Source: Agarophyton chilense (Eukaryota; Rhodophyta; Florideophyceae; Gracilariales; Gracilariaceae). Taken from it: a stretch of DNA of 64,000 bases. Below, one piece after another: positions 3,478 through 46,123 of the stretch. The DNA is taken from assembly GCA_030374765.1 (NCBI GenBank), contig JARGXX010000075.1, forward strand, positions 1,426,001 to 1,490,000, written 5' to 3'. Numbering within the stretch: position 1 is the stretch's first letter; each line of letters opens with the position of its first letter. The notes beneath the pieces are model-generated. The model did not search any database. It saw nothing but the letters and a program-made list of their open reading frames with translations, and had not been told where the DNA came from. The position numbers and the translations under genes are program-made.

Positions 3478-3516
3478 ACAACGAGCTGAATTGTGCAAGA
3501 CATTCTAAGTACTTTC

Positions 3517-5190: not shown

Positions 5191-5382
5191 CAGCTCAGGA
5201 TCTTAGCTATATTCTCACACAGCATCTTCAAACTTCTCTTCAGGTTCCGATTTGATGACTACAGAAGCGTTGGTGGTCTGGTGATTCTTCTCGACCTTGC
5301 TCTCAACCTTGCCCACACTATGCGAAACATTGCGCAATTCATGCAATATATGTGTGTTATCACTCTCCCCGGTCGCCTTGTC

Positions 5383-6723: not shown

Positions 6724-6735
6724 GATAGACTCTTT

Positions 6736-7584
6736 CTATCCAGAGGCCATATCTGCTGCAATGAATGACACCCAGGCATTTTCGTCTGCCTTGTCGTCCG
6801 ATCCTTGGGCCCTCTTCTGCTTCCCGGCGCCCTTCGAAGACGCCCCGTCCTTCTTGACGTAGTTCTCGCTACGCGGGTTCTTTCTGCAAAAGCGTTTGAT
6901 GTGTCCTTCTTCGTTACAGAAGAAACAGGTTCTGTCCTTGTTAGATGTTGACCCTCGAACGTGAAATGTAGTCCCACTACTGTTGCCAGCCGATCCTGAT
7001 GCGCCCATGTCCACCTGAACCTCCCTTGTGATTAGCATTGGAGTAGCTTCATGTAGCTTCTTGTCAGTGGCACGCATTACCTCTGCGGTCACTTCATACT
7101 CCTTCGATGACCCTCGAAGGAGTGCTCGTAGCTTATCTTTGTCCGATACAGAATGACCGACACTGCCGAGCTTCGATTCGACTTCTGCCAGACGGCTCAT
7201 GTATGCTAGCACAGATTCACTTGGTTGCATGCATATCTCCTAATACTTGTGGAGCAGAACGTCGATGCTGGCTTGTGACACCATTTCGAAGTTCTTCCGC
7301 AGTGTCTTCCACACGACTTGTGGATCCTTCTCCTCCAGAACAGGGGCAATATAGGAATCGCCCACAGAAAGAAGGATGCCCGAAAGCGCAATGTCGCGCT
7401 TCTCCTGATGTTTCTGCTGCTCGGCTACTGATTCGGGGTTCAGAATGCGGAAACTGTCATCAATGATACCCCAAACACCTTTGGCCCGCAACACCAGTTC
7501 AATCTTGCGAGACCACATGAAGTAGTTGTCAGCCTGCAGCTCAGGTACGCGTAGCTTAGAAAGCTCCACGAGCGCATTTTCCAT
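6736..7584 (-). pseudogene. Copia-1 Gag with CCHC zinc knuckle
   Basis: The ORF starts at ATG 7584 and is broken by a TAG at 7240-7242. The N-terminal half contains LKVPELQADNYFMW-like and VWKTLRKNF-like segments seen in Copia Gag (UBN2-type). The C-terminal half holds a CCHC zinc knuckle (CFFCNEEGHIKRFC) followed by basic residues. A second TAG at 6736-6738 separates Gag from the protease in the same frame. In an intact copy one polyprotein would run through both positions. Confidence 0.85.
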
Positions 7585-7633
7585 CTTGTTCAGCGATCGA
7601 AAGGATAGTTGAGAAGCACAGGTTTGCGTTACG

Positions 7634-7647
7634 ATAGGCTCATAACC
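7634..7647 (-). promoter_or_regulatory. Copia-1 candidate primer binding site
   Basis: Immediately inside the 5' LTR the minus strand reads GGTTATGAGCC. This resembles the GGTTATCAGAGCC-type initiator-tRNA primer site common in Copia elements, but the match is partial. Confidence 0.4.
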
Positions 7648-7907
7648 TCTTATGGTAGATGCAGAAGTTGTTTCGTCGAAGCTACCGACGTTTTACTGCT
7701 GCGGTGTCGCGCTGCTATGGTCTTAAGTACTACTCGTTCTAGCTACTTGGCCTCCAGCCTTCTGGTCACCCAAAAATCCAAAATGTAGTGCTGCACCGTA
7801 CCAGTGCTCGTAATTGAGCGCAGTGTAGAAGCAAACGTTCGTATCGGACAACAGTGGCCAAACGTCCATCTTGGACCGTCGGGGCCATACGTCCAGATCG
7901 GACAACA
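7648..7907 (-). repeat. Copia-1 5' LTR
   Basis: This is the partner of 3204-3463. Both copies contain several GGACGTTTGGCC-like short repeats near the start of the LTR in element orientation. Confidence 0.9.
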
Positions 7908-8141
7908 CTACGCATTGAAGCCCGTCACGCATGCAAAAAAAATTATTCCTCACTCAACAATAAAACTTTCACAATAAGTGGCTCTCCTTGACAAAAACCC
8001 AGACTACGCTAAACATTAGAGACCTTTTGGATGTCGAACTCTCGTCGAGTTACCGCGTAAAGAGAAAGCAAATATGAAGATCAGGTTGAAGAAAGGTGTG
8101 AATCTAGGACATATGAGCGGTTGACAGTATTCTGTGCTCGC

Positions 8142-8474
8142 TGATGGAATAAAATACACTCAAACGCGGATAACTCTTTGAAGTGTTGACTTGAATTCGT
8201 TTTTCTCGACTCAGTCTCTGTTCTTCTGTTCTTTTATATTACTTTAAAGCACTTATAAATTGTTCTAGATGCATATCATTTTGTTCTAAGATATTTCTTG
8301 CCTTTTCTACAAAGTTCTATAGAAGCTTCTAGAATCATCTACATACTTCTATTATGTAAAACAGTGTACAGTTGCATTTTGAAACCTTCTAGAGGTTTCT
8401 ACAACACTACATACTTCTATTACATAAATCAGTTTCCAGTTGCATTCTGGAACCTTCTAGAGGTTTCTACAACA
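8142..8474 (-). repeat. Copia-2 3' LTR with internal 68-bp duplication
   Basis: In minus orientation it begins TGTTGTAGAAACC and ends CCATCA. It is homologous to the solo LTR at 18204-18470. It is about 66 bp longer because a 68-bp segment is tandemly duplicated (8341-8408 and 8409-8476, the latter reaching the LTR edge). Confidence 0.85.
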
Positions 8475-12905: not shown

Positions 12906-13014
12906 ACCCACCAAGGATCACTCCTTGACTTTCTCCGTTAGCCAGTTAATACTGCCCGGCCGGCACCGCGAGGAGGTGGAGATAAGTTTCAAACCGACCA
13001 TGTAGAGGCGTCTT

Positions 13015-26920: not shown

Positions 26921-29230
26921 TTAGGCACCGGTCGCGCGCGACAGCAGTTGACGCAGCTGTGTCAAAAACTGCATCTTAATCTCTCGAGGAGCCTTCCCTT
27001 TTAGGGTTCCGAGTCTCTGTAGAGCCAGCGGCTCCGGGGCGTTAGCGAGTACCAACTCGAACGGGGAATGGCCGGTGCTAGAATGGACTTGTGTATTGTA
27101 CCCAAAGGTCAGCGCATCGCTGTAAAGGTCCCAGTTGTGCTGATGCTCAGCAACATAATGCCTCAAGGCAGACAACATGGTTCGGTTGAACCTCTCGACT
27201 TGACCGTTGGTCTGCTGATGGTACGTGGACGTGAAGAGGTTCTTGATGCCAAGGATTTGGCAAGCGCTCTGAAAGAACTTCGAGGCGAAGTTAGATCCAT
27301 TGTCCGACAGGACAGTGACGGGTGGTCCGTAGACAAACACCCAATGGGTGCAGAACGCCCTTGCAATTGCGAACGCATCGGTGTTCCACAAAGGGATGGT
27401 CTTCGTCAACTTTGTGAAGCCCTCACAGATCACCAGCAGGTAACGATTACCTCTACTCGTAGTCTGAAGTGGCCCCAGGATGTCGATCGCGACACTTTCC
27501 AGCGGTGCGGTCGCCGGGAACAGCTTCAATCGGGAGCTTTTTCTCACAAGAGAAATCCTCTCCTTCACACACGAGTCACACTCGTTGACCAAACGGTACA
27601 CATTGGCAGCCATTCTTGGCCAGTAATAGCGTCGACGCATCGTGGTGTACATCCTTCGTCCTCCCGGGTGTCCTGCGACACGGGGGTAATGATGCATATG
27701 CATCACGCGCTCCTTTAGCGATTTTGGTGTAAGCAACTGCTCGCTTTGATCTATTCTAGCTTTGCGGTATAATAGTCCATCATGGTCCGTGTACACACGG
27801 CATTTGGGGTCATGGAGAGATCGTTCTCTCATGTCCTCACAGAACGAGTCTGTGGCTCGCTCGGCGAGCAATTCTTCTAGCAAAACCGCCGTCAGCTCAT
27901 GTTCTTCAACGTCGAGGGCGGCATCCCAAGGATGCGAGGCATTGCAGAACGTGATGCTCGGGCCTGTAGCCTCCGGCTCACACACAAAACAGGGTATATC
28001 CTCTGAAGGTCTCATAGCGGTCTCACCATCTGTGGGCATGCGCGACAACGCATCGGCCGCTTGGTTTTCCGAGCCCTTCTTGTAAATGACTTCGTAATCA
28101 TACTCTGCGAGGCGTAACCTCCATCTAGTTAGGCGGCTATTCGCGTCGGAGTCCGACAATCCGAGAAGCCATCTCAAGGACTGGTGGTCGCTGATCACTG
28201 AGAAGTGCGTGCGCTCTAAGTAAGGCCGTAATATGGTCAGCGCCCACACAACTGCGAGACATTCTCGCTCCGTAGTGGAGTATCTCCTCTCAGTGGCGGA
28301 CAAGGTCCGGCTCCAATACCCAACTGGATGACGGATTTCGTTATGAACTTGCGTCAAGACGCAACCAATCTGGCCAGCACTGGCATCGGTCTCCACCGTA
28401 AACGGGCGGTCTGCCCTTGGTAGCTTTAACACTGGCGCGTGCGTCAGTGCTTGCTTAAGCATTTCGAACGCTTCTAACTGCTCAGCTGTGAGCTGCGGCA
28501 ATCGAGGTGAAACCTCTTTCTTCGTAAGCTCCGTCAGCGGTGCAGCAACTTTCGCGAAATCTCGCACAAAACTTCGGTAGAGGTTGCACATTCCGAGAAA
28601 GGATCGAACTTCAGTCTGCGTCGCAGGTGGTCGCGCCTTCTGGAGAGCCTCAAGGTTCTTCGTGGCAACTTCCAACAGGCCCGGTTTGATTACGTGGCCA
28701 AGGTAATCTACTGACCTCCGAAAGAAGTGACACTTCTTCAACTTTAGGGTTAACCCTGCGTTTCGGAGAACAGTGAGTATCTCGTCCACATGTCGTATGT
28801 GTTCGTCCGCATTTTTGGAGAAGATGATGAAATCATCAATATACACCAGGCAACATTGCCATTTGAATCCTGCTAGCAGGATATCCACGATTCTCTCGAA
28901 CGTTGCTGGGGTGTTGCAAAGCCCAAAGGGCATACGAGTGAACCTACAAGTCCCTGCGTGACACGTGAACGTGGTTTTGTCCTGATCTTCAGGCGCGACG
29001 GACAGGTGCCAATACCCGCTATTGCAATCTAGCGTGGTAAAGAACTGGGCCTCGCCCAAGCTGTCAAGACACTCGTCTTTGCGGGGTAGGGGATAGGTAT
29101 CCTTCACGGTAAGGGCGTTGAGGCGCCTATAATCTACGCAGAAGCGTAGGCTTCCGTCGGGTTTCGGAACAAAGACAACTGGGCTTGCCCACTTTGACCT
29201 GGCCGGTTCGATGACACCTGCATCAAGCAT
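26921..29230 (-). pseudogene. Gypsy-1 reverse transcriptase, RNase H and integrase
   Basis: This 769-codon open stretch is the best-preserved protein in the window. RT: FCVDYRRLNALTVKD near residue 30, LDCNSGYWHLSV, MPFGLCNTPATFE and the catalytic LVYIDDFIIF near residue 130. RNase H: FTVETDASAGQIGCVL near 275, TERECLAVVWAL and VISDHQSLRWL. Integrase: a HHCC finger (HHYPRVAGHPG...CDSCVKER) near 500, then AIDILGPL, LSDNGSNFASKF and HQQTNGQVERFNRT giving D, D and E. All catalytic residues I can place are intact. It is joined upstream to the protease across a TGA at 29276 and ends at a TAA at 26921, so it is one original pol. Confidence 0.93.
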
Positions 29231-29275
29231 ACGCTTAACTTCGGCGAACTCGTGTTCTCTAATCTTCGGTCCAGC

Positions 29276-30415
29276 TCAATAAGGCTGCGAGTGAACAGGG
29301 GTTGCCCCTGACATCAACTTGATCCGATGAGGAGGTCCTCGAATCTCTCCAAGCTTACCGCTCCACATGTCTTCATGCTTACCAAGCATCTCTTTCACGG
29401 CACGCTGCATCTTTGGCGAGATCTCCGAGAGATCTATCGAGTCCAAGAGGCTCGTTAGAGGCTCGGTCGTCCGCGACTCTCTAGTGTCACATGCCGGGTG
29501 TGGCCTGAGGTTTCCGGGTTCCGGTTCCTCGGGTTGTCGATCGTGCAGGATTGCGTAGATGTCTGACGGGCGCTGCGGAACAGCACGACCAAGGACTTGT
29601 TCTTTACAAAGCGTCACTTCGTGACGAGCGAAGTTGGCGACAATAACTCTGAACGGTCTGTTGCTGCGAACGTTCGCGACGCCATTCGCCAGACGAACGC
29701 GATATTTGTGGAAGAGCTTCTCTTCTGGCTGGAGGAAGAAACTTCCTCCATCGGCGCACCTCGCCAAGACGATGGTTTCAGAGCTAGGAGAAAGGGCTAT
29801 CTTCCGTGCGATGTGAATACGTCTGCAATGGTAGAAGGGGTCCTTCTTTAGCTTCTTTCCCTCACCCTTCGGTGGCGTGCGACGCCAATCAGATGCCGGT
29901 CGTCGGTATATCGGAACAGATGAGTAGTTACTCATATATACGGTCCCCCTCTTAGGGTGGATAGCGTCAACATGCTTATCGATGAAATCACATCCTAGGA
30001 TCACGTCTGTACTCAGACGTTCAGCGACCAGGAATGGCACGCGTGCCAGATAATCCGCGATGCGGACGGTTAGCACGGTGGTGCCACGAATTTTGAAGGC
30101 ATGCCCTCCTGCGTCGTTAAGTCCGAGGGACTTCTGAGCGGGTGCCAATGGGGTTATCCTCAACCCCGGAACTGCATCCTGGTGGATGAGGTTGGGAGCG
30201 GCCCCTGTATCCAATACGGATAAAACCTCCATGGCATCTTCTTTGGTAAAGCCCACACGAGCTACAACTTTGTAGTTGAAGCGTCCTATTTTGAGGACGG
30301 GGTCCTGTTGCGGCGTAACAACTTCCGCACACTTGTCTAATAGACACTTGGTAAAGATTTCGTCACCTTCGTCTCTGATATCCGGAGTCTTAGAAGAGGA
30401 GACTTGAGCATCTAA
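29276..30415 (-). pseudogene. Gypsy-1 protease and RT linker
   Basis: The aspartic protease motif is VLSVLDTGAAPNLI with a later flap-distal IRGTTVLTVRIADY and ADVILGCDFID-like segment. The pol frame begins by overlapping the gag end and runs without a Met through LDAQVSSSKTPD and into the ORF whose first Met is at 30256, so a frameshift start is expected. It ends at TGA 29276-29278, in the context PY-stop-AGPK, where related Gypsy elements usually have Arg (CGA). The next frame continues REHEFAEVKRMLDAGVIEPA. Confidence 0.85.
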
Positions 30416-31871
30416 GTCCGGGGGACGTTTCTCTGAGCTTGGGGCTCAGCGTTGTCCTTGCGAAGGACCTGGGGTTGCGCGTACACCGCGCTAGGTCGTA
30501 GGGCCTGGTATCCTCTTCGTGGAGGCGTGAGTCCTGCCACGTAGTAGACCATCGCCGGCATCCTTGCCGCTATCACTGGAGAGGCCTCCAATATACGCTG
30601 TCGAGCCTGCGCTCGCATGGCCGGAGTGATCCACTCGCAATCATCGACCACGTGGTCGAGATTGGCGCACAAGTAACAAGCTCCGTAAGCTTCGCGTCGC
30701 GGCGCATGCTGGCTCCGCTGGAGCCTTCGATCAACCCATCCAACGCGCTTGGGCTGCGCCCACTCCTCCATACGGGGGTTATAGTTTGACACTACCGGAA
30801 GCGCGGGGTCACTCTGTCCCAACGGGTCATATTGCGGAAGGGTTTCCGCCTCTGTTGTGCTACAACTGTAGCTTGGGTCCGTAGGCGGACCCTCTACATC
30901 GGTGCCGATATGCAGAATGGCGTCATCGCCAAGATTACGGCCTGTCAGGGCCGTATCGGTGGAAAGGGTCGTACCCTGCAGTGACATCACCGGTGCCTTA
31001 GCCTGATACGGCTTAACATTCAACTGATGCCTGAGCGGTCGCGTCAGCTTTGACGTATGTCCATGAGACATAGCCAGTTCAACCACAGCGTCCAAGATCG
31101 TAAATCGATCGCAGTGGAGCTGGCGGTCTCGTGTCACACACGAAGCGACGCTGGGCAAGAGCCCTTCGATAAAGGAAGCAATTTGCTCTTTTTGTGAATA
31201 AACCCCACCAAGTCTCGAGAACTTCAGGCGGACACGCTGTCCGAAAGACTGCTCAGTCTCACCAGCCCTCTGGCGTAGTAATCGGAGATCACGTACTAGA
31301 TCCTGGATATACTCATCCTTCGCGTAGCTGCGTAGAAACCATTGGATAGCCTCTGGCCATGACTTGATTCCCGTGGAGGAATCGTCAATCGCGTCCACGT
31401 ACAAAGCACTGTCGTACGCTATACGGGCATTGCCCGTCAGGAAGTACGGTAGTACTAACTGCCATACCTTCGGAGACTCCGTTGTTATTGGCCTCGCGTT
31501 TGAACGCGTCTAAAAAGGTCAGGACTGACATAGGATCTGCTCCGTCGAACCGACGGTTCGCCATGGTGGTATTGAACCGCTTGACCATAAAAGCGACACG
31601 TCGCTTAACTTTCGAGCTCTCGCTTGTTGCTCGATTATCTAACCGATATGTCTTGTACGACAAGACTTTCTTGAAGCGGCTATTAGCAGGGTTAATCTCT
31701 GCAAGATTGTGCTTCCGCAAGTCCGCACCGGACTCTGAGCTCGAGGATGATGTATCATCCGTGGACGAAGATTCCGAACCGGATTTGCGCTTCACCTTAG
31801 ATCGTTTGCGCTGCTGCTTGGCTTTGGAAGCCCTGGGCTTGTGTGAGGGAACCTCACCTTCTGATGGAGAA
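30412..31871 (-). pseudogene. Gypsy-1 Gag, C-terminal part
   Basis: The 3' part of gag is divided between two overlapping ORFs (31385-31795 and its upstream extension, then 30412-31404) by a single-base frameshift near 31465. The joint falls between NNNGVSEG and VWQLVLPYFLTG. The core shows a retrotransposon Gag capsid pattern (VWQLVLPYFLTGNARIAYDS, then WPEAIQWFLRSYAKDEYI). Near the end one Cys/His group (CYLCANLDHVVDDCEW) resembles a CCHC knuckle. The upstream end at 31871 is the insertion point of the DNA transposon; the N-terminal part is at 42519-43375. Confidence 0.82.
30415..30425 (-). promoter_or_regulatory. Candidate -1 ribosomal frameshift site between gag and pol
   Basis: Sense sequence GTCCCCCGGACTTAG ends gag (Val-Pro-Arg-Thr-stop). 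The pol frame is reached by a -1 shift, which a run of five C just before the gag stop could allow. The overlap is only a few codons at this point. No downstream pseudoknot was assessed. Confidence 0.45.
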
Positions 31872-31875
31872 GTAC
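31872..31875. repeat. Target-site duplication GTAC, left
   Basis: GTAC occurs here and at 42519-42522. It can be read as 5 bp (GTACC) depending on where the inverted repeat is started. Confidence 0.75.
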
Positions 31876-31930
31876 CCCAGTGCGCAGCATGATGGGAAAA
31901 AATATGGCCGTAATATGGCCGTACTTAGAC
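31876..31930. repeat. Left terminal inverted repeat with subterminal ATATGGCCG motifs
   Basis: CCCAGTGCGCAGCATGATGG then AAAAAATATGGCCG. The reverse complement of the right end reads CCCAGTGAACAGTGATTTGG then GACAGAATATGGCCG. The motif AATATGGCCG recurs directly after, and twice more before 32060. Confidence 0.85.
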
Positions 31931-32958
31931 TTTAATTTTATTTAAAATTTCCGGCTAAAAACAGGCCAAAAAATGCCCTGAAATATGCCTTTTAACGTAT
32001 GCCAAAATATGGCCGACTATTATAGAACGAACACTGCACCAACTATGGCCGAGAATTAGAACACGTCAGCGTACCTCAAGAGTCCGAGATCATACGCAAA
32101 AAGGGCGTAATAGGACTAAATTGAGCCGAAACACGGCTGGAAAATTGGGCGAACCAAGTCCATTCTCAGTTCCGATCTGGTTCGAAATAATAACCCTTCT
32201 CCACAATCAAGACAAATGATTATTGGATATGGACGCTTGTTTCTTTCAGTTTCGGACAGATAGAACACCGAATTGTGACCTTATCAGGTCCATTAACTCT
32301 CCAATACAACACATATTTCACACCATTTAGGTTCTAGTTCTGGACATAGTTTACTCGTAAAATCCACCGAGAGGGGCTTTCTGCAGTCCCACTTCTTATG
32401 AAGATGATAGTCTCCAAGCTCTTCCATACAAAGATGGAATTTCCCTCACTTAGACTTACTTAGACGAAAAAACTACTTTGTATGATCAAAACTGTATCGC
32501 ATCTAGAACTCACACTTGATGCAAGTCAAGCAATGAACAACTACAACCATTTCGTACACCAAGAACCGCCTCATCCAGATTTCAAATCGTACTGTTCGCC
32601 CAATCTATGGTGATACATACGAACTTCATGGTAACACAAAGCTAATCGGGAGTCCTGACACATTGAAATCAAAAGAACGATAGTTGGTTAGTCTGGTGAG
32701 GCATATGAGGTTTTAATCATGGTTGCAAACGGGAGGAACTCACTGTACGTACTCCGTGGTTGGCGATAGCACCATAAACGTTATGTTGAATATGCTTCGC
32801 AATAGAGTAATTTTGAACATGATATCGTTTGCGAAAGGTTAGGGACCTGGAGCAGTTAGAGGTGTTAGCCAGCAGAGCCGGCATAAATCAATGAAGGCGA
32901 GTGTACTTACAATAGGAAACATGTCATTAGCAACACGACAGGACTATCACAAAGTCTC
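31931..32958. other. Left subterminal non-coding region of the DNA transposon
   Basis: No ORF of note is present. It contains extra copies of ATGGCCG (near 32008 and 32045), which are likely transposase binding sites by analogy with CACTA-type elements. The rest is AT-rich, without recognised features. Confidence 0.6.
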
Positions 32959-34350
32959 TCACGGCTTCATGGAGCGAGGGGCGCGGAATCGAGAAACAGC
33001 TGCCTTCGAATTTCTAATACGAGAGCTCTGACGTGCTTCTCTGTGGCGTGCAACCCAAGTTTTCTCTGCCCCGTGAAGCACAGTTGAGTCAGACTCATCT
33101 TCAGATGTTTCGCTTTCATGTAGCCTCTGCATGGTCCTGGAGTTGGAGATGCCTTTTCTGCATGCCCTTCCCTTCACTCCTTTCCGTGTTGTCTTACGCT
33201 GCCCCTGTTGTTTTTGTGGCGCTTGAGAGCGATACTCATCATTATGGTCTTTGTTGTCATCATCGAATTCACCCGAATTGTTGGACAATGTGGAAATTTG
33301 GTTGAAGGGGCGCTTGTTCGAGGCCCTCTCGGTCACAGCAGCCTGCAACTGGTTACTGTTCTGCTCGTTGCGATAGGGCTCACCGCTCTGATTGTGTATA
33401 CTATGTTGATCGGGTTGCGGAGGATGGCCACTAATGTCTCTTGAAAAGCAACTAGCAGACGAACCGGCGTTACTAATTGAATGCAGTGCAGAGTGGCCGT
33501 GGCGTTGAAGTACTTGATCGTCATCTGGAAGAGGTCCAACTTGTGCAGACCTGTCATTGCCCCTTGCAGTGCGCTTACGCGAACGTTGATTCTGGTTTCG
33601 TCGTTGAGTTTGGCTAGGGCGGCATCTCCCACCGTCAGACCTGTCATTCATTCGCATCGCACCACCTTGCACATGCTCCCCTGACCGGACGTGCATAGAG
33701 AGAACGGGAGACACAACGGGAGACACAACGGGAGACACAACGAGATTGGGACCGTTCTGCTCAGGTGCATGTGCACTCAAGTCGTTCTGGATTCCGCCAA
33801 GATCAGTGGACAATAAACGTCTCCTGGCTGCCTTTTTCGAAGCTTCGATCAAAGCCTTCTTATCGCGTAGCATGGATTCCTTGATAAACTCCGTCGCCAG
33901 CCAGAAGTTCTGAGCCGCTCCGAGAACTGGAAATGCATCCACAATCTTCCGCTTGAGATGCGTCAGTTGAGTGGCATACTCGATTTTCACAGAAGTGAAT
34001 GTCCTTTCTCCGCGCCTTAATGACATCCTCTGATACAGAAACTGCCTAATGAGGTCCTTGACTGCGTTTGCCATCTCTGCATACACAGGATAGTTTTCAT
34101 TCGATGGAGCCGAAGTTCCCATCTGCTCCCGGTACAGACGGTTAAAAACTAAGCGCGCTGAAAGAACGGTGCCGGGGGGAACTCCAGGCCTATCTGATAC
34201 CTTCATTCTCCGTTTATAGGCCGCTGTTGGAATTCCGATAGTGTTTGGGAGAAATATATGACCCCCCGACCGGCTGTCGATGATGCTTTCCTGCTGCATC
34301 GACGACTGATTGTAATCTGCAGTGACTGGGTTAATAACTCGAGACCCCAT
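32959..34350 (-). CDS. Uncharacterised basic 463-aa protein of the DNA transposon
   Basis: One uninterrupted frame starts at ATG 34350 and ends with TGA. Residues 1-190 look folded (MANAVKDLIRQFLYQRMSLR, then FPVLGAAQNFWLATEFI), followed by a basic helix (KKAARRRLLS). From about 200 the protein is low-complexity, with three VVSP repeats (a 12-bp DNA tandem repeat at about 33705-33742), a basic patch (RSRKRTARGNDR), acidic stretches (FDDDNKDHNDEY) and a Lys/Arg-rich tail. It is transcribed away from the transposase across a 640-bp gap. A DNA-binding accessory protein, like TnpA of CACTA elements, is a reasonable guess. I recognise no family. It is the only unbroken gene of the element. Confidence 0.65.
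   Translation of the reverse strand: MGSRVINPVTADYNQSSMQQESIIDSRSGGHIFLPNTIGIPTAAYKRRMKVSDRPGVPPGTVLSARLVFNRLYREQMGTSAPSNENYPVYAEMANAVKDLIRQFLYQRMSLRRGERTFTSVKIEYATQLTHLKRKIVDAFPVLGAAQNFWLATEFIKESMLRDKKALIEASKKAARRRLLSTDLGGIQNDLSAHAPEQNGPNLVVSPVVSPVVSPVLSMHVRSGEHVQGGAMRMNDRSDGGRCRPSQTQRRNQNQRSRKRTARGNDRSAQVGPLPDDDQVLQRHGHSALHSISNAGSSASCFSRDISGHPPQPDQHSIHNQSGEPYRNEQNSNQLQAAVTERASNKRPFNQISTLSNNSGEFDDDNKDHNDEYRSQAPQKQQGQRKTTRKGVKGRACRKGISNSRTMQRLHESETSEDESDSTVLHGAEKTWVARHREARQSSRIRNSKAAVSRFRAPRSMKP
33705..33742. repeat. 12-bp tandem repeat, 3 copies
   Basis: The unit GGGAGACACAAC is repeated three times inside the 463-aa protein gene and encodes the VVSP repeats. Confidence 0.85.
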
Positions 34351-34988
34351 GATGCATGAACAACCCTAAGTCATTGAAAACGCAGAGCAAACGAAATATA
34401 TGCATGAAAGTTAGCAGAAGATGAAGGACTCTCATCAATGTACACGTGAACTAGGCAGTACTTACAATGCGTTAGCCGTACGTTGGTACGCTGCCGTCGC
34501 TTTCGTTCGAAGAAGTCGAAAGAACGAATACGGTACGCGGTGCACGGGAACGGAAATGAACGAGATGGGGAATTGGATGTGGACCGGAGCGACGGGAAAG
34601 AGACAGAAAGGATGAAATGGAGCCTGGAAGGGGAAGACACGGGAGGTGAAGCTCGAAGAAATGTTTGAGGGGGAACTTATATGGAAGTCGCATCGAAAGA
34701 AAACAAGCGGACTTCAAACGAAAGCGCCAGCAAGCTTTCGGGTGAACCTTCTCCATTTGCCAAAAAGTTGGTCACAAAATGCCCTTTCTACATTCGCCCA
34801 CAAATTTGATAAACTTTGACCCTTGAACCTGCCCGGAGAGGTAGAGGGAGCTAGGACTATACGCCAGATCTGCGTTAGCCATCAATATTCAAATTCTGAA
34901 CTCCATGATAACGCGGCTACCTCGCTTTAGCACCATCGTTCAATACTGAGTTCCTCCTTCTCACAATATCCTTCTCTGCAGCTCCAAA
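34351..34988. promoter_or_regulatory. Divergent intergenic region of the DNA transposon
   Basis: 638 bp separate the divergent starts of the 463-aa protein and the transposase. No coding hallmark was found. It must hold the promoters of both genes, but I see no convincing TATA box. Confidence 0.45.
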
Positions 34989-37900
34989 ATGAACATGTCC
35001 ACGTCCTTCTTTCAATCTAGAAAGCGTAAGGGGAGATGGCAAATGCGTGGCAAACGATGGGAACCCCCAGCACCCGTCTCTCAAGAAAGCTCCGAACAAT
35101 ATACGAGGCTTCCCGAGCAAGCCCCTTGCAGAAAAAGAAGGTGCAGTTGGGAGCTCGAGCCCGAGCAGAAATTGCTGAATGATGAGCAATCTATTTCTCC
35201 ACTTCAAACGCAGAAAGATTTGAGCGAAATGGAGGAGAGCTCCGATGTGAGAGGATTTGATCTTGGTAGAGAGGAGGATTCACCCCTTCATGTGCCCATC
35301 GTGAATCCTCAAAACAGTTTCCATAATATTCCCGTGGATGCAAAAAATGAGGATGCGCAACTTTCGTTGTTGCAACCTGGCGCTATCAGTCCTTTGGATG
35401 CGTATGCTTTCGATAAAGACAGACAGAGCTCTGGCTTCTATGAAACCGATGATGGCCAAATGTCCAGAAGTTCCGAAGATTCTGACCCTCAACAGGCTTC
35501 CCGACTTTCCCTTTCCTCAGATGCCATTGTTGGTTTTGAAACCAGGAATACAGGTGTACAAAGCGCTGATGAGTTCAGAAGGCTTGGAGCCTTTCTCTAT
35601 ACTGCTGAACTGTCAGGTATATCTCAGAGAACATTAGAAAAGCTTCTCACTGTTGCCCCAATCAACGCCATGGTTTCATACCGTACAATGCTTTCGTTCG
35701 CTGTTCGCAACTCCCTCGCGACGGAATCATATGTGAAGATGTGCAGGGAGGGTCATACTGCTTCCGCCGGCAGGCTGAGAAACACAGTTAAATGTCCTGC
35801 CTGTGAAAATACTATCAAAGGAATTGGAAGTGCAAAGTTCTGGTACTGGAGACCGACAGTTGCAATCAAGGCACTATGCCGAGTTCGTGACTCGTTCCAA
35901 GAACTTATTGAAGGATGCAAGCGAGCCAAAGATGCTTGCATGGAATCAATAAATGTTGCCGAGGACCAAGATTTCCATCATGGTAATATGTTTCAAAGAA
36001 AATTCTCCAGTTGCATGCAGCAGTGGGATGAAGAATCAGGTGTGCTGCATGTGTTTCTCACATTCTCCACAGATGGTTTTGAGTGCGCAAAGAACAGAAA
36101 GGGGCAACCTATATCTTCTTGGCCCCTCGTTTGCACAGTATTGAATTTCAGCGTAAAGGAACGATCGAGAGCAAATAACACCCTTATCCTCGCCGTTGTA
36201 CCTGGCTCCCATGTATCCCAGTACTTTGACACATTCATGTCTGAAATTGTGAAAGACTTTCGCCAGCTACAGAAAGGTGTCCAGGTTGTCTGCCATGATA
36301 AGCGTATCCGACTTGTCCGAGCACACGTACTTTTCTGCACGGCTGACTGGCCTGCAGCTTCAAAACTGCTGGGGTACGTTGGACACACCGGTACAGTGTT
36401 TTGTAGATTCTGCCTCAAGCAAAAGACGTACATACCCGAGTGTAACAGCTCTTGCGTTGTTCCTCATATTTCATCTGGCCTTGTGAAAGCTGTGTTGGAA
36501 AAGAGGAGAGGGCGTAACATTGTCTACAAAGTTGGGGACATTATCAACATCGAATGCGGCTCGGCTCGCCACGAACGCGATATCATTTCCACGTGGGGCA
36601 AGCTCAAACGACTCGGCGATGATGCTGCTGCTGGAATGAAGGAAATTGCACGAAAAACCGGCATCAAACGCGATTCTTGTTTTCGAATGCTTTCGATGGA
36701 CTTCAAGTACTCTTTTCCTTACGACGTGATGCATCTGGTACTCTTGGGCTGGAGTAAACATTTGCTGAAGCTTCTCAGCGGATTTCACGCTCGCCATGAG
36801 AAGATGGAAACGACTCCGAGCTACTGTATACCAAGGAACACACTCCACAAGATAGATAGTAACATGGATCGATGTTCAGGAGGAATTTCTGTTTCATGGG
36901 GGAGGCCACCGTTGGCTCTCCGTGACATAGAAAGATATAAGGCCGAGGACTTCAAACGTCAGTTTGAAATGTACCTCGTTCCATTTCTGCATCGTGAAGG
37001 AGTTGAGGAGAAAATATTAACTATATGTAGGCTGACGTCGAGGCTGATATCAATATGCTTCCAATATCAGTGCGTGGATGGTGAAGTTGAAGAGTGAAAG
37101 CATGTTGTGGAGGAGCTGTACGCAAGGTTCGTGGATTTGTTCTACAGAAAATCTTCAGATGCGTACTGCTTCACACCTACAACTCATGCAGTATTGCACC
37201 TTCCAGACCTTTTGAAACAGTGTGGTTCTCTTCCAACGACATCTCAGTTTCTTATCGAGCGACTTCTTGGGGACATGGGAAGGCAAATGACCTCCAAGAC
37301 AAATGTATACTCTCACTTGTTCCATAAGAACCATAGACTATTCGCCCTTCGGATTATGAACAATGGACTTGCTCCGCGAGTCGTCGAAGAGAAAACTCTG
37401 AGGCTCACGAGCGAAACAAGTGATCAGGACTCTGAACCATCAGGCGAAGGGAAAAGTACACGTTATACCAGTACAGGCGTCGAGTGTCATGGAACTGGAA
37501 TCGAGAGCGAGGTATGCGGAGAAAAAAGAAGTTCTATATCAAGGTTCATGAGGCAGAACGTCTCCTATGGCGTCGAAAGCTATAGAATCACTCCTCTCAA
37601 ACAGTACCAGTGGGCCACAATCTTCAAGAGTAATCAACAATTTTCCATTGAAACCAAGGAGTGGTACACGAAACGATGCAATTCCACACGTGGAGAGCGT
37701 CAAAAGCATTGCATCGCGGGAGAGTTTTTGAGGGTTGAAGAAGCACAGATCGATGCTGATTCTCATTCTGGAGTATCCCATACGACATCACTTCGAAAGA
37801 CGAGAGATCTGTACTATGGTGAGGTACAACGGATATTCAAGGCCTGCATCGAAATTAATAGACAAGATGGGAAGCGAGTGCTCATGTTAGCTCTTTTTCA

Positions 37901-38186
37901 GATCAAGTGGCAGTATGGGTGTGTGCATGAGGAACAACTAGATCTTGTGTACATGAGGGATAGAAGGCGTTCAGAGGTTTCCATTGAGACAAGTGAATGT
38001 ATTCAACGCCTTGTCGGAGAACTTGACATATCTGGAAGGCGATATTTTGTTGACAAGGTTAGAAACAAGAGAATAAGCCGCGGTGACCTCCAAATTCCGG
38101 GCGCCCTTGCCGTGCGGGTAAAGTGGACGACGTTCTTTCGTTCTCGAAGCATGGATCGCAAAGGACGAAGACGCCATCTGTTTTAG
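34989..38186 (+). pseudogene. tnp2/Transposase_21-type transposase (one in-frame TGA)
   Basis: ATG 34989 opens 702 codons to TGA 37095-37097. The same frame then continues for over 350 codons to a TAG, giving an original protein of about 1065 residues. The first 200 residues are acidic and disordered. Family motifs then follow: CPAC...I (Cys pair, about 265), LTFSTDGFECAKN with a candidate catalytic Asp near 361, NTLILAVVPGSHVS, CTADWPAASKLLGYVGHTG with a second Asp near 451, CRFC, and FPYDVMHLVLLGW near 575. After the TGA, HAVLHLPDLLKQCG and LIERLLGDMGRQM match the late part of this family. The TGA (CGA ancestor likely) breaks the protein. The 3' end overlaps the channel gene tail by about 130 bp, tail to tail. 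Confidence 0.85.
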
Positions 38187-41100
38187 CGCATAATGTGTTA
38201 AGATCGGGATGTGTATAGACGTAGGGTAGCAAATTATCTATCACCGCTTTCTCCGTGTATTTCAGTTGCCCAAGGACATAAGTGACTGTACGTATCCTTG
38301 AAGCCGCACCCGTCGCACCGTGCCCTTCTTTGTCCGCTGGAGCAGTATATTTCTTCTCGTTAGTTCCCGCAAAGCCTGATAATTGATTTTGGGCATCTGT
38401 TGTAAAGTCTGCGTCGGATGCGTCGTTCACATCAATCGTGCTTGACGTATCTTCATCGGATGCAACAGCCATTTCATCATTGTGAGCCTCACCATTCAAT
38501 CGTCCATGGAATTCATTCCTTCCTTCCTGTTCTTGAACATGACTGGGAAGCACTTCTCAGAAAGTGCCAAAGACTCTTCGGAGAAGTCGCCTCACGCGAA
38601 TGAAGACAGATGATCCCTCGATTTCATTTCCTTCTTCGCCAGATAAAGACTCGTTTGTCAGCTGTCCCAAGTAGCGCAACACTGCTGCTCCCCTCTTCTT
38701 TCGGGATTTGGTGGGCAACAGCGCAGGTGCAGTACCAGAACGGTAAATTCCAAGCGGATTTACGCCTAATCTGATGAGGGCGTTGAAATTTTCTCGTATC
38801 GTACTAGCTCAAGATCACCTCTTTCAGCTGTATTGCGGGAATCAAACATGGTAGGCGGAATCCTGATAAGGCGGATCTTCATTCCAAAACTCTGCGAGTT
38901 AGTACCAAGAATATTGGTGAACAAATTAATGAAACCTGGTTCAATGTACTCCCGCGCCAGTAAAGTGATGGCATTAGATTGTACAAGCAGTTCTCCTGAC
39001 GCATATCTGCTTCTTGAAAATAACACGCTTTGGCGAGCTTTAATGGCACCAGGCTTAGGCGCGGGATCACCCTCGAACTCTGGAACGATATTAGCGGGGC
39101 TGTCCGGAATGATACCCCTCAAGTTTCCTAAGGGTTGTTGCGAAAGTCTTCCGTGGAGAGCATTTGACACATTGTGACGTGTTGACTCCTGACGAATCTC
39201 GTTACTTTGGCCGACGACAGTGCGTTTTCGTGATGGCGCCTGGGGTTTGACTGCAGATGCTGCATTTGAAGCTCCTTCAGTGGAACATGTATTGCGATTT
39301 TCAGCAGCTAAAGGGCCCTGACTAACTTCGTCACCGAGATCTGCAACCTTTCTACGTGGATGCAATGGTTCTCGCAAGTACTCTAGTGACCGTTCTTCTA
39401 CAAGCTCTAAACAAATAAAAAGATTCTGATCATCTTTGGTAACGACATCCAAAGCGAGAAGAGTGAGTAAGGTTTGAGCGTCAGTGCCATTTCCTTTTTG
39501 CCTGTAGTCAGCTGTGGTAACTAATGCCTTTGCATGGTCTATCCTAGCCTTTCTCCATGTGGCCCTCGATGTAAAACGTCCTTCTACAAAGAAGAGGGAT
39601 TGTCCAACAACGCGAGACAACCTGTCGCTAAAATCCGACGATATGCAGGGATGAACGACGACAACCTTTGCTTTGTGTGTTTCTCTGACTGACATACGTA
39701 CATCTTTTTTCCACAGGTTCGCAAGCAGCAACGTAAGTGTGTCCAACGCCCCTTCACCCTTGGGCGCAATGATGGCGTGGTCTTTCAAGTCTTCTGGAAC
39801 GCGATGAGCTTTGGATTTTGTGAGAAGCCATTCTGTCCTCTCTGCTTGATGTGCAATTCTCTCCAAATCTTCCTCATCAAAGAGCGCGTCAAGATCATCC
39901 CCTGACTGGTTTCGGCGATTTTGTAAAAGAGCACAGAATGATGGAGATATTTCACCCAGTTCTAGAATCTGACTTGCCTCCAGCTCATGAACATTGGGTG
40001 GGGAATTCTCTCTCGCCGTTTGCGACTGTCTCATTGACTCAAGAGGCGTATGAGTGGTTGAAACCAATTTTTCTCGACGTAGCTTTGCATAGCGCAGTGC
40101 TACAATGTTTAGAACGGCAGCAACTGCTCCCAGTTTATGATACGTCAACACCATCACTAAATCACCACGGGAAAGCAATGCATCGGTGTTAAGGACTAGT
40201 CTTGGAACAGGATTACTGACATCACTGATAGCCACGATGATAAGCCCTAGTTGACACAGCTCTCTTGCTAAATCCTTTATCGCAACGCCGTCGAGCTCTT
40301 TCGGAACAATTGCATAAGCGAGCTCGCACGATGCTCCCATATGGTATTCCGATAGCCACGGTGGCTCGTTTTCTGAGAATTCTGGAGTTTGCACGTCAAG
40401 GTACATATTTGACAGTAAAGTACCTACCCCATTCGCTCTTACATTTCCAGATATCAACGCCATTTGAATTTCTTGAATACAACGAGTTGTGAACGAGCAA
40501 GATCATCTTTCCCACGACCTGTTTCATAATTTCTCCTAGTATCCTCTTGCGTGTCGAGGTATCTATGCACATGTTCTTCAAATCTCCTCAGAACACTGCC
40601 TTTGCGTTGTAGCTCTGGAATAGTTTCGTATTCGAGCTCTAGGACTTTAAAATATAATCCGGTATATGCTGCGTTTCTACTCATTTCCTTTCCTCTGAAA
40701 TATGTCTCCTCTTTCGAAAAAGTAGATGGTGTGATGAGAGCAGTGTATGTCTGTAGATTAGAATTTTCTAGGATAGTCTGAGCGTAAATGGGTATATCTG
40801 TCCGAATGTTTCTGATCGCCAAGGCGCTCATAACGGTTTCGGTGTCTCGGATTGACGGTTCTTCACCGTTCCTAAACGAGCTCAAAATAAACACAGCATC
40901 AGCAGTCTCAATCCCGGCATGACTGAGATCTAAGTAGTTCCCAACAGAACCATGCATGTACTGCACCCTGTTCTGCAAGAAGTAATTCTTCGCAATATAC
41001 TGATACCAATCAGAGTCAAACCATTGTACTTCGCCTACGAGTACAACAATCCTGGCATTCTTGTTTGAACCGCGGGGGTCTGAAAAAAACTCTGAAATGA

Positions 41101-42061
41101 ATTGGATGAGGTCCGTACGGTTTGGAGATCCGGGTATAATGACGTGGCGAGTGTTCTTGTTCTTAACGAACCATCCGCTCCCACGACGACGACGGGCATG
41201 CGTCACGAGCTCCGAAACGATGGAAGCAAATATAACAATACCTATGATAATGATGAACAAAGTGAAGATGCGTCATTGCAAAGTCGAGGGAGAGAAATCG
41301 CCAAATCCTACGGTCGACAAAGTGACAATAATGAAGTAGCATGAATTCAAAAACGTCCATTCTCCAAAATTGAACCACCTTTCGCGAAAAGCTGTAGGGA
41401 GAAGATCACCTGGAATTTCGAGAAGCTGGATGGCACCAGCAAGCGTGTAAAACAGCACTAGATTCTGGACAAGTAGCTTTAAAAGAAGCCTTCTGGAGCT
41501 CATCATTCGAATAAAAAGTAGTCTTTCCAAGATCAAATAGAAAAGATATAGCGAAACCGCGCGAAGGAAAGCTAAGTTCAGATATTCATTCGGACCATCA
41601 GCAATCCACATCGATGGGTATGAGAAGGAATCAACCAGAATTTGTAGGGAGAAAACGGATGAGAAAGCTGACTCAGTTGATAGTAAACGTAGTACAGCAT
41701 CGATAACAAGTAGCCTCGAAGATATTCCGTACACAACTTTCATGTACGTACTTACATTCTGCAAGTATGTGCCATGTACGTACACAACACATACCAGCAA
41801 GTTAAGGGCAAATCTGATAACTTCAGGAAAAAAAAACAAGTGTAAATTCCCACCACGGTATTTCATGAAAAGGCCTTGTAGTTTTGGCAAGCGACGAAGG
41901 GAGCGATGAAGATTTCGCGGTCCATAATTGATAATGTAACGGCGACAATAGTCAAGCAGGAATGCGACGAAAGCCGTGACTCCAAACGTTATCAGACCGA
42001 GATACAGAGAACGCCCAATGAACCTCCAAAGCAAATCGTTTTTGGGCTCATCCAAGTCCAT
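38059..42061 (-). pseudogene. BK/Slo-type calcium-activated potassium channel, broken
   Basis: Starts at ATG 42061. Several membrane helices (from about residue 17) lead to a S4-like FLRAVSLYLFYLILERL, S5, and a pore with TLSTVGFGDFSP, the K+ selectivity filter at 250-255. After a TGA (41273-41275, aligned with the conserved Gly of the filter-S6 loop) S6 follows (RIFTLFIIIIGIVIFASIV). RCK1 begins near 303 (TRHVIIPGS, then HGSVGNYLDLSHAGIETADAVFIL). A one-base loss near 40463 shifts frame; the next ORF continues MALISGNVRANGVGTLLSNM and WLSEYHMGASCELAYAI. A second shift in an A run (38789) leads into FNALIRLGVNPLGIYRSG. Another TGA (38557) precedes the RCK2 tail YVYTHPDLNTLCAKTDGVFV. No calcium bowl was seen. 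It lies wholly inside the DNA transposon. Confidence 0.85.
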
Positions 42062-42518
42062 GGATTTTGAGGCGAATGCAACAGAACTCTCTGTGGCTTA
42101 ACCACGAATTCCTGAGAGCGGGAATTGAAGGCTCGGATGGCCACGGTTTTGAGGTGGATGTCTGAAATATGACAGCGTGAAATTTGGAGCACGACTCTTT
42201 TTTGTGTTTTACGATGCAGCAAAGCAAAGCGGCCTCCTGATGTTGAATGGCACGAGACTGCCGCAAATGGATTTTCAAATATAAATTGCCAAAATAGGGC
42301 CGGAGGCATCTCCATTGGGCTACATTGCGTCCATTTCTCGGACGGCCGTCAACTGCTGGCCTGCTTTTGGCCACTTTACGACGCATCAATATTTTTTTAA
42401 GATAATGCCACTTGTTTGGCGGCCCTGTGCCGGCCACTTCTGGATATGCAAAATAAAATTTGGATTTAATCAAGTCCCATTATCGGCCATATTCTGTCCC
42501 AAATCACTGTTCACTGGG
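42062..42518. repeat. Right subterminal region and terminal inverted repeat of the DNA transposon
   Basis: About 410 bp of non-coding sequence precede the right inverted repeat (about 42465-42518), which ends CACTGGG. GGCC-containing motifs recur here (ATCGGCCATATTC, TTTTGGCCAC, GGACGGCCG), resembling the left side. An open frame at 42048-42473 (-) has no recognisable product. Confidence 0.75.
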
Positions 42519-43375
42519 GTACCATGCTTCATAAAGAATGCCACCTGGCCTTGCAGGGCAGCTCGTTGGAACTCTAGGTTCTCAACCTTCTTGTCCAGGT
42601 TGACAATTCGAGTCTCCAGGCCCTGGAGCTCCTGTCCATTAGAAGTGACACCTCCTCGTTGTGTGGCATGCAACACCGGGCAGGGTACCTTGACCGCAAG
42701 AAAAGATTGAAGGCGTTGTTGCAGCGCAGCTTGCACTTCACCTACAACCTTTACAGTTAGTTCGGCGAGTCGAGCTTCGAGGGATTCCCTCCAACTTCGC
42801 TCAGCCTCGTTAACCTGCTGAGTCACGAGCCTGGGCACGAGGTCTACGACCTCGGCAACGACGAGCTGTCGGACTTGCACCGGTACTACGTCCATTGCAG
42901 GTCTTGGGGATGGAGTTTCATCCACTTTGATGGGAATTCCTCCCGTGGGTGGGGCATGAAGACCTTTTTCAGGGGGAAACACCTTACTGGGACGAACAGT
43001 ATCAGTCGTCGTAAACTGTTTCGCTGAGGGGTCCAGCCTCGGTAAGGGAAGGGTAGTGAACTCCACTCTAGGCGAGGTAGCAAGAGCTACCAATGGTGTG
43101 TTCACTGGCACACTAGGACCTGCGGGTCTGGAGGAAGAAGGTTCTTCCACGACTGGGGAGGGTGAGGAGGCAGCATCTCTCGCAGTCGCTGACTGCGCCT
43201 CCCCGGGCTTCGGGCCATGGGCTAACTGGGCAACTCCGAAAAGTTTCGGGGGGTTGCTTCCGCTGAGTGCTGAGGCGTTGTTCTTTGTAGAACTAGCCTC
43301 TCGACCACTGACCGAAACGGACTGATTGTCATTCGAAGTCGAACGCCTGAAGGAAGCACCTGATCGGGTGCTCAT
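42519..43375 (-). pseudogene. Gypsy-1 Gag, N-terminal part
   Basis: ATG 43375 lies about 100 bp downstream of the primer binding site in element orientation. The protein begins MSTRSGASFRRS, is Ser/Pro-rich for about 150 residues, then helical with a coiled-coil-like part near its end (LETRIVNLDKKVENLEFQRA). It is open up to the transposon junction at FFMKHGT, where gag should continue as SPSEGEV at 31871. The few codons past the junction (PVNSDLGQ) belong to the inserted element, not to Gag. Confidence 0.82.
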
Positions 43376-43461
43376 GACTGGGTCCGGGTGACGACCTGGG
43401 CAAAAAGACGAGTATCTCCTTGAATTTGAAGAAGTGAGACTGCGTAGTCTCTTGTGTTTCT

Positions 43462-43475
43462 AAGTCGGGAGACCA
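43462..43475 (-). promoter_or_regulatory. Gypsy-1 primer binding site
   Basis: Four bases inside the 5' LTR the minus strand reads TGGTCTCCCGACTT. This begins with TGG and is complementary to a tRNA ending CGGGAGACCA. It fixes this LTR as the 5' one. I have not assigned the tRNA. Confidence 0.75.
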
Positions 43476-43479
43476 GAAA

Positions 43480-44655
43480 TGTAACGCAATGTGCTAGTCG
43501 GGAGACCAGCCGCGGGCGGCCAGAGCTACACACAGGCAGAGCCTGGAAAGCCGGAATTGGCTATCTGGCCCTAGAGTCCGCAACGACTCAAGAGAGACGT
43601 CGTCTCACAGGCGAGGAGTGTCTACTAGGCACAGACTCCTATCGTTTTACAAGAGCTCTTGGCGTCCGGAAGACGTGCTCGGAGTGGTGTCGATCCGACA
43701 CGAACCGAAGTGATCGGCCTGGATATACGCCGCGTATGACGAGTAGCCGGGGCGAGCCCCAGGATTGTACCAGAGCCCGGACGAGCGCCACGACCCTAAC
43801 GTCGGCAACGGCGCACCAACCACTTCACCCAACGGGTGGCGATAGCAAAGCAAGGCAAGCCCTGAGATTGTACCAGCGCTCAGACGAGAGCGTCTGCTTG
43901 GCTATGCCGACTGGCGCCACAAAAAGGTAATCACTCACACCCAACGGGTGACGATAGCAAAGCAGGGCAAGCCCTGGGATTGAACCAGCGCCCAGACGAA
44001 TGCGCCTGCCTGGCTTTACCAGCTGCACCTGGAAGTGATACTCACTTATCCATGGCTCCCGATCCACACCTCGGTATCCAACGGATACGGGTCTACAATC
44101 TGCTGGGGCAGTAGAACTGCCAGCGGTCCAATAGACCGAGCGAAAGTGCAATGCGCCACGCGGGGACCGATGGCCGTGAGGGCAAGGACTGGACGGGGAA
44201 TACTCGATAGGCTAAAACGCGAGAGGTACCTCTGCAGCAGTTGATCAGACTGCTGCCTGTCTTGTCGGCGTCGACTTGGAACGAAGGTCTGATAACCCTA
44301 TAGTCTCAAGACACGAACTAGTAGTTAGGAGGGCCCTTTCTTCAGGACTTTACTTCGGTATAGCCCCCGGCGACCCGGCGCTCAAGTACCGCCGGCCGCT
44401 TAGCAGTTAGCCATTACTATAGATTACAACTAATAAATACAATTAAAGATTACAAGGCAGCAGTGCAGAGCACTGTATGATGCCAACCACACGAACTAGC
44501 TGCCGGCCATTGCCACACGTATGACACCTAGCGCCATGCACGGTATTTCATCCTGGCAGTATGCCAGCTATTACGGTGTCGTCACTGCTTAGTGTAAGGA
44601 GGTCGGAGGAGGATGGCTACTTGTCCTAAATAAGGGCCCAGCGCGTTGCGTCACA
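43480..44655 (-). repeat. Gypsy-1 5' LTR (1176 bp)
   Basis: This has the same length and ends as 23093-24268, with about thirty substitutions by eye. A disproportionate share, about nine, falls in its first 90 bp on the plus strand. It contains the same 105-bp tandem units (from about 43830 and 43935). Confidence 0.95.
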
Positions 44656-44660
44656 AAACC

Positions 44661-45360
44661 CACGGTGGTGGTAGCACTCTGGTCGACAGAGGGGTGGATG
44701 AACTAACGTGCGACGGGCGCTCACGCAGTATGCGGTGAAGACGCACCGAAGGCGAAAAGTTCAGAGCCAAGACTTCCTCCTTGGGATTTCCCAAGAGGGT
44801 GTTTACTGGGGAGCAGTGCTCAACCTCCTAAGTAGTGTGGGGCGCAGCCCCTGACAGTGGGCGCGCGCCCGAAAAATAGACACTAAATAGCGATAGCGTA
44901 GCTAAATAAATACTGAAAACTACTAAAGAATACTAACCATTAGGTACAATCCGGGCCACGTGTGGCACGCCTCGCACTCGAGCGTCGGCATCCGTGCAGT
45001 CCACGTGTTCCACCAGTGTGCACTTCCGGTCCTAACCCGCAGTCAGCACGGAATAGCGGTATAGCTTTCCATAGCCCAGGCTAGTCGTCAAGCGAGCGAA
45101 ATCTGTAAGTCATGGGAAGAAACCTCCTTGAAGGGCATTGTCCTTCAAAGGGTAAGGATTTTCTTTTCATTGTCCGACACGCGATGGACGGAGGGGTTTT
45201 AGATTCCAAAAATGACTCTGGCTCTCAGTCTGACGATTGCCACGGGGGAATTTGAAGCCTAGCGAGGATGGCTTTGATTTCGAAGCTGCAAAAGGCGAAA
45301 AAGAAGTTTTGGGTTGCTTTTGCTACCTAACTGTTTCCCGAACAACATGTTTCTGTCGAC
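44661..45360. other. 700 bp without a recognised gene
   Basis: GC-rich at first, with short self-complementary runs near 44838-44872 (GGGGCGCAGCCCC and GGGCGCGCGCCC), then an AT-rich stretch. No ORF or transposon signature was recognised. It may be the terminal region of the DIRS-2 element that follows. Confidence 0.5.
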
Positions 45361-45378
45361 ACTCTTGAAGTAGAAGAT

Positions 45379-46123
45379 ATGCTTCGTAAAACCCTAAAGA
45401 ATAATCAGACGGTCTCTGCGTGGATTGGAGCTCGTTGCCTCACGCGTATTCGGAACCGTTTGGAAGCTGCACTGTTGGCGCGTATTATTTACTGCCTCAT
45501 CAGCTTCTTCGCCGTTAAGCGCTCCAAAAACAATTCGTTGGAGGATTTGGAAATTCTTATGTTGGTGGCGGTGACAATGGTTGATAAGAGTGGCAACTGG
45601 GAAGCGACGAGAAAACTCAAAGAAGAGCACGACAAATTGAGTAGCGAGTCAATAAATTCAAGCTTCTCAATTCGGCGAAACTTCAGAAGGAGTTTAGAAA
45701 GGATAAGAATGCCTTGCGAAAGCAAGGAGGCGAAAACGAGGCTAAATATCAAAACAACGATAACAAGAAAAACTGTTTTTTATTTCCATAGACATGCCGT
45801 ACGTGCTTTCTATATCAGTGGCGTCCGAAAATAAAGACGGGGATATAAAGAAAGAAAGCGTACAACAACGGCTAAAGTGGAGTTGCAAGAAGATAATTCA
45901 GAGCATACTTGAGGGTCGAAGTGGGCTTCATTGCTTATATGCTGGACATATCTACACCTTTCTACCGATACAAGAGAGAAACGCTGTCCAAGGCCCGGCG
46001 AGCAATAAATTGAAAGGCATCGGAGAGGACTCATTTCTGGAAAATTATTTGGTGGCGGAGGAGGCCGTAGGGGAAGTTGATTTTACGTTCGAAAACATTG
46101 CTCACATCTATTGGTCTGGTTGA
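45379..46123 (+). pseudogene. DIRS-2 Gag-like protein
   Basis: Two plus-strand frames (45379-45834 and 45794-46123) carry the homologous block VDKSGNWEATRKLKEEHDKL, matching DIRS-1 Gag, and a second block (IQERNAVQGPASNKLKGIG, then VAEEAVGEVDF) which matches GEERNAVQRVATTFLREIG of DIRS-1. The frame change near 45660-45800 inactivates it. Confidence 0.65.

Follow-up and report, generated by a model that had tools for sequence, protein, structure and literature searches.

Probable capture of a host BK-type channel locus by a CACTA-like transposon in the red alga Agarophyton chilense

In the red alga Agarophyton chilense, a gene for a potassium channel lies between the two ends of a DNA transposon, which raises the questions of where the gene came from, how it entered the element and whether it serves any function there. 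We analysed the whole stretch of 64,000 nucleotides that contains this locus (the window), together with the genome assembly, and the results make it very probable that a host BK-type channel locus was captured by a CACTA-like element via repair of a cargo-bearing sister element, which then spread with the channel as a neutral passenger. A BK-type channel with pore and RCK regions on the minus strand between transposon ends, as proposed in a previous sequence-only reading of the window, was confirmed by Pfam, which identified Ion_trans_2 (2.4e-10), Slo-like_RCK (1.1e-20) and BK_channel_a (9.2e-11), with the second RCK region just below the cut-off (23.7 vs 24 bits). The channel starts with an ATG at position 42061, and its frame is broken by stops at codons 263 and 1169 and by two 1-bp deletions. 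Of the limits given for the gene in that reading (38059 to 42061), the upper one holds, whereas the lower one is the end of a decayed frame that is fused at its 3' end to the antisense strand of the transposase gene; homology to host DNA stops at 38144.

The transposon covers positions 31876 to 42518 of the window, with the terminal inverted repeats CCCAGTG (31876-31882) and CACTGGG (42512-42518), the latter being part of a right end of 255 bp (42264-42518). It is inserted in the gag gene of a Gypsy element, in which Retrotrans_gag was found by Pfam, and GTAC is duplicated as the target site on its two sides (31872-31875 and 42519-42522, read by eye from the flanks). When the two flanks were joined through a single GTAC (440 bp) and used as the query, 29 of the 32 matches crossed the empty site at 95-97% identity (28 spanning positions 1-440, one 3-440), the remaining three being the two halves in the window and a piece of 63 bases. 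The earlier proposals that the two ends form a true pair and that the element interrupts a Gypsy gag were thus both borne out by these uninterrupted loci, and the former also by the alignment of seven copies over the whole span. Five Gypsy loci recovered in the empty-site search on contig C5 (4409-43784) are spaced exactly 9,734 bases apart, an arrangement suggestive of a tandem array of the Gypsy.

Subterminal repeats are typical of CACTA elements. The repeat AATATGGCCG was identified six times within the ends of the element, four times at the left end (31901-32051, plus strand) and twice at the right end (42293-42302 and 42484-42493). With at most one mismatch, there were eight matches in the whole window, compared to an expected number of 2.63, and eight were reached in 1 of 100 shuffles. 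The second gene of the element is an open frame of 468 amino acids on the minus strand (32959-34365), for which Pfam gave no match; a frame of the same length is open in the sister element on C111, the transposase of which carries four stops. No match was found inside the element in an Rfam scan. Elsewhere in the window, a match to the drz-agam-1 ribozyme was obtained at 12929-12998 on the minus strand, with a score barely above the gathering score (37.2 vs 37).

In the assembly (79.8 Mb, 135 contigs), 14 of 15 phycobilisome matches, ten of them with more than 100 bits, fall on one contig of 228 kb (C39), as expected for a red alga; the phycoerythrin alpha chain has its best PDB score with 1eyx, an entry from Gracilaria chilensis, and the beta chain with a different entry. 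We searched the assembly with a probe of 1.5 kb from the window channel, which matched 23 places, and long flanks were taken for ten of the other 22. A Blast comparison of window positions 29001-46000 with these ten identified six further copies that extend across 31876-42518, give or take a few chance-matching bases at the edges, at 96.9-97.5% identity. In total, the genome contains full channel-bearing copies in at least seven places (W in the window, C131, C1a, C1b, C28, C68 and C95), all with the CCCAGTG start and the CACTGGG end. Since these copies were found with a channel probe, the presence of the channel in each of them says little, and the unbiased count is that of the right end. Among 17 matches to the right end, 13 covered the full 255 bp at 95-100% identity, of which seven belong to the channel copies and six to channel-less sister elements, where different host DNA occupies the position of the channel. 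Elements with the same ends do carry the channel elsewhere, which was the test named beforehand, in 7 of 13 cases. Target duplications were present in all nine copies examined (seven channel copies and two sister elements, the eight outside the window being read separately), with a length of 4 bp in six and 3 bp in three. C1a and C68 have only 10 differences over 10.6 kb and are surrounded by different flanks, and one of the two therefore appears to have moved recently.

The transposase gene (34989-38120, plus strand) is of the tnp2/CACTA type, with a Pfam match to Transposase_21 of 43.4 bits (2.9e-11, cut-off 28.6 bits). In the window, it has a TGA at codon 703 and its terminal TAG is changed. 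The gene was present in all seven copies and is open over 1,044 codons in C1a, C68 and C131, while it is interrupted by a single stop in each of W, C28 and C95 and by a frame shift in C1b. A six-frame search with the 1,044-amino-acid protein gave 46 matches, and among the 44 of 296 candidates that were scored only the transposases of C1a, C68 and C131 were full-length and free of stops. Four older relatives of the transposase (C81:9524, C82:42298, C80:2245864 and C14:11019) have equal scores, lengths and stop counts, and three of them are located within 20 kb of a contig end; they may be copies of one old, perhaps subtelomeric, element.

The CMCT clade, which includes Plavaka, is described as having a tnp2-type transposase with C(2)C and H(3-4)H motifs between the catalytic residues and a target duplication of 2-5 bp, with the termini CAC..GTG in EnSpm and TGT..ACA or CATCA..TGATG in Plavaka (PMC12730594). 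The element resembles CACTA/EnSpm and the CMCT clade, as outlined there, in its tnp2-type transposase and in target duplications of 3-4 bp, which are within the range of the clade. The open protein contains CRFC, a candidate C(2)C motif, near which only HARH, an H(2)H, was seen by eye. In contrast, its termini CCCAGTG..CACTGGG fit neither the 5'-CAC..GTG-3' of CACTA/EnSpm proper nor those of Plavaka, for which the target duplication is 2-3 bp. As the termini are unlike those of EnSpm, we use the name CACTA-like, and from its sequence features we place the element, as a putative member, in a family of CACTA-like cut-and-paste transposons of this red alga.

The donor was identified on contig C79, which is 98.3% identical to window positions 38144-42263 over 4,122 columns, while the rest of the element was unmatched there. 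The channel on C79 is a single open frame of 1,327 codons in which Ion_trans_2, BK_channel_a and two RCK stretches all pass the Pfam cut-offs, and the selectivity filter is TVGYGD, as compared to TVGFGD in the window copy. With a K+ filter and pore, two Slo-like RCK regions and a BK_channel_a domain it is predicted to be a channel of the Slo/BK type, but the best match to a solved structure, fly Slowpoke, is limited to residues 124-430, which make up roughly one quarter of the protein, and the BK-type assignment is one by sequence. The gene is arranged tail-to-tail with an enolase gene, which is open and encoded on the opposite strand, with about 200 bp between the gene ends, and within 17 kb around it the channel alone matched the window element or the sister pieces compared. 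The earlier proposal that a host or foreign channel gene was captured and moved is upheld for a host gene, with a donor, two junctions, seven copies and an empty site; a foreign origin is not supported, given the nearly identical open copy at a resident host locus beside enolase. The host has two more BK-like channel genes, at C4:517832-519604 and C37:74813-78715, both with long open frames and with 30-49% identity by stretch. Judged by titles and the starts of abstracts, a literature search gave nothing relevant on BK channels in red algae or on captured channel genes. When C79 was compared to older channel copies (see below), no excess of third-position changes was seen for C111a, C111b and C6, and only a slight one for C16; this codon-position pattern gave no clear signal, and the open frame is the sole support for coding constraint on C79.

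The captured DNA (38146-42259, minus strand) is a piece of about 4.1 kb that begins approximately 200 bp upstream of the ATG and continues to about codon 1307 of 1327, the last 20 or so codons being lost at the junction; because it includes the DNA before the ATG, it was copied from genomic DNA. A three-way comparison of the window, the sister element on C1 and the host locus C79 placed the 3' junction at 38144-38145, with a microhomology of 2 bp (TC), and the 5' junction at 42260-42263, with one of 4 bp (GCCG). For random pairs of breaks, an overlap of at least 4 bp at one junction and at least 2 bp at the other has a probability of P=0.005. When the copies were checked for the junction motifs, six of the seven showed the 3' word and five the 5' word, the remainder being without the exact search word.

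Seven other places in the genome share the backbone of the element up to 38145 but are without the channel, and the right end was found in six of them. About 9.9 kb of other DNA separates backbone and right end in four (C1, C113, C121 and, on C25, the copy at 895-905 kb), and the same sister DNA is present, interrupted, in C88; the second copy on C25 is truncated where the contig ends, and C111 is an internal-deletion form with 2.1 kb in this place. Three blocks of this sister cargo are collinear at 70-75% identity with a host locus on C117 that encodes an AAA ATPase (which we take to resemble a subunit of the 26S proteasome), a GNAT acetyltransferase and a NIP7-like protein. Since the sister cargo, at 25-30% divergence from its relative, is far older than the separation of the copies (about 3%), this 9.9-kb cargo most likely came first and gave way to the channel, and not the other way around. 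Pieces of the sister cargo (74-82%) were also found beside a right end at 75% identity at C10:114362-127603, which suggests that an older element carries this non-channel cargo as well.

From the junctions, we infer that the element was under repair, most likely by gap filling and template switching, when the interior of a cargo-bearing sister, which would have held the other cargo in its slot, was replaced by the 4.1-kb stretch copied from the host channel locus. Junctions of much the same appearance would result if a free fragment had been inserted by end joining. The element would then have spread, presumably by means of its own transposase, still open in three copies, and the channel would have drifted as a neutral passenger.

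The pattern of decay is consistent with such a passenger. None of the seven channel copies is open: two frame-breaking deletions are common to C131, C1a and C68, a deletion and a stop are common to W and C95, which also have lesions of their own, and C1b and C28 carry their own lesions. Because no lesion is common to all seven, the founder channel was probably intact apart from the last 20 or so codons; C79 differs from all seven copies at nine sites. We counted substitutions private to one copy at sites that are gap-free in all seven (n=180), which were distributed over the codon positions as 71:51:58 and included 103 transitions and 77 transversions. Fifty of the 180 were synonymous, as compared to a neutral expectation of 49.9 from the transition and transversion counts; this count is confined to private changes and leaves aside 99 channel changes shared by subsets of copies (21 synonymous), of which 66 belong to the group of C131, C1a and C68. 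The private substitutions look neutral, and the channel copies look like a decaying passenger.

Neutral decay is equally expected if the copies act through RNA, in that antisense or small RNAs from them lower the expression of C79 or mark the element for silencing. The channel and the transposase are convergent, so that read-through from the transposase would yield channel antisense, and for a grapevine CACTA family an antisense transduplicate located downstream of the transposase has been suggested (PMC2528002). With a decay pattern that a mere passenger would give as well, we consider an RNA role improbable. A still poorer account is that the channel aids the element or the host, for example in ion transport or membrane excitability, and is kept by selection. 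Such cargo would agree with the capture of a nearly whole gene with its upstream DNA and with the finding that the three open full-length transposases, among the 44 of 296 candidates scored, all belong to channel-bearing copies. The absence of any open channel, the synonymous fraction at its neutral value and the codons missing at the junction make this very unlikely, and the suggestion in the sequence-only reading of a membrane excitability or ion function conferred on the host is not supported.

The same host locus also has an older history. Channel pieces with 75-85% identity were found on C111 (four), C16, C121 (two) and C6, while C80 holds a piece from the enolase side only. The piece C111a covers C79 positions 4514-8401, beyond the channel into enolase, and C111b has the same 5' start; C121 and C16 also extend from the channel to the enolase side, and C121 and C80 share the 3' end point at 8401. 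Flanks that do not derive from C79 are common to C111a, C111b, C16, C121 and C80 in overlapping pairs. These shared breakpoints or flanks rule out an independent capture by each of the five (C6 was left out), and the old pieces are what remains of a single earlier event, a capture or a duplication, at the C79 locus. On C111, the copies near 769 and 797 kb each lie downstream of a related transposase (30-31% identity), at a distance of about 0.7 kb, and near the copies at 769 and 819 kb a right end was found that is 74-76% similar to that of the channel element family; no right end was found in the 17 kb around the copy at C111:797195. A search of four old loci with the window transposase gave weak matches in two, and the 468-amino-acid frame gave no match in the four. 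The C79 locus has thus been taken at least twice, in each case probably into related elements.

A trace of contact between old and young copies was seen in C131, C1a and C68, which share a patch of about 350 bp at coding positions 2396-2747, approximately. The core of the patch is 95-97.5% identical to the old remnant C16, as compared to 84.5-84.7% to C79, and 52 of the 64 comparable changes common to the three copies match C16. Since the patch is closer to C16 than to C79, channel copies do exchange sequence, and the patch represents a later exchange from an old remnant. The three copies share 66 changes in the channel compared to 12 in the transposase, which at first suggested selection on the transposase; as the channel changes cluster in the patch, we do not claim such selection. 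Private transposase changes look neutral, and the changes on two internal branches (10 of 23 synonymous) are too few to carry weight.

It is conceivable, although we hold the idea only tentatively, that this group of transposons repeatedly exchanges DNA with one host channel locus: an older capture of the channel and part of enolase (C79 positions from about 4510 to 8401, by now 16-24% decayed), a recent capture (about 3340-7461) and a patch that went back from an old remnant into three of the young elements. Recapture may be made more likely by old remnants that lie in elements, which would lead to repeated takings of one gene, and the channel line is the only one with an open full-length transposase among the 44 of 296 candidates scored. 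The retaking of the locus may reflect chance, a hotspot or help from old remnants.

That older elements also bear channel pieces would fit a flow in the reverse direction, with the channel as an old transposon gene and C79 as a copy that settled in the host. However, C79 runs past both junctions into other DNA, has its native C-terminus and lies next to enolase, and C111a, C121 and C16 also reach the enolase side, so that this neighbourhood predates the old copies; together with the match of the channel alone in the 17 kb surveyed, these observations leave the reverse flow with very little probability. An assembly artefact or a chance join of unrelated repeats, for which no supporting point was found, can be dismissed almost entirely, given that the seven copies are spread over six contigs, that their flanks differ and target duplications are present, and that both junction words recur.

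Capture of a host locus by the element agrees with a process known from plants, where CACTA and other elements with terminal inverted repeats take up genes; Pack-TYPE transposons (Pack-CACTA and Pack-MULE) are defined as non-autonomous (PMC8903248, PMC13317346, PMC2528002), and grapevine CACTA copies contain a gene piece downstream of the transposase frame in opposite orientation (PMC2528002). As in Pack-TYPE elements and plant transduplication, as presented in those sources, host coding DNA is located between the ends, has been multiplied with the element and is mostly decaying. Unlike in them, all seven copies hold a transposase gene, which is open in three and may be active, so that the element is not Pack-TYPE by definition although it behaves like one, and the cargo is one nearly whole 4-kb gene in a red-algal host. 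For animal Pack-TIRs, gap filling and FoSTeST models have been proposed in which fillers are joined by microhomology with a median of 2 bp, and some were multiplied by transposition (PMC8277862). The junctions of 2 and 4 bp and the multiplied filler are similar to that description, but the filler here is from another contig and would have replaced an earlier interior of about 9.9 kb. The channel was called an unusual cargo in the sequence-only reading, and it is an odd gene to carry, but gene capture by transposons of this kind is already known.

The known process is transduplication by a CACTA-like element, and the uncommon traits are the transposase-bearing backbone, the nearly whole gene, the replacement of cargo and the second taking of the same locus. 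In the open-licence literature, judged from titles and the starts of abstracts, we found no report of such capture in red algae. With this locus, gene capture by CACTA-like elements is seen in a red alga as well, and it represents the theft of a gene by a transposon, not the provision of a new function to the host. It is also an unusually complete case, with donor, both junctions, alternative cargo, empty target, neutral decay and open transposase in one genome, and the two takings of one locus, together with the conversion patch, make the choice of fillers testable.
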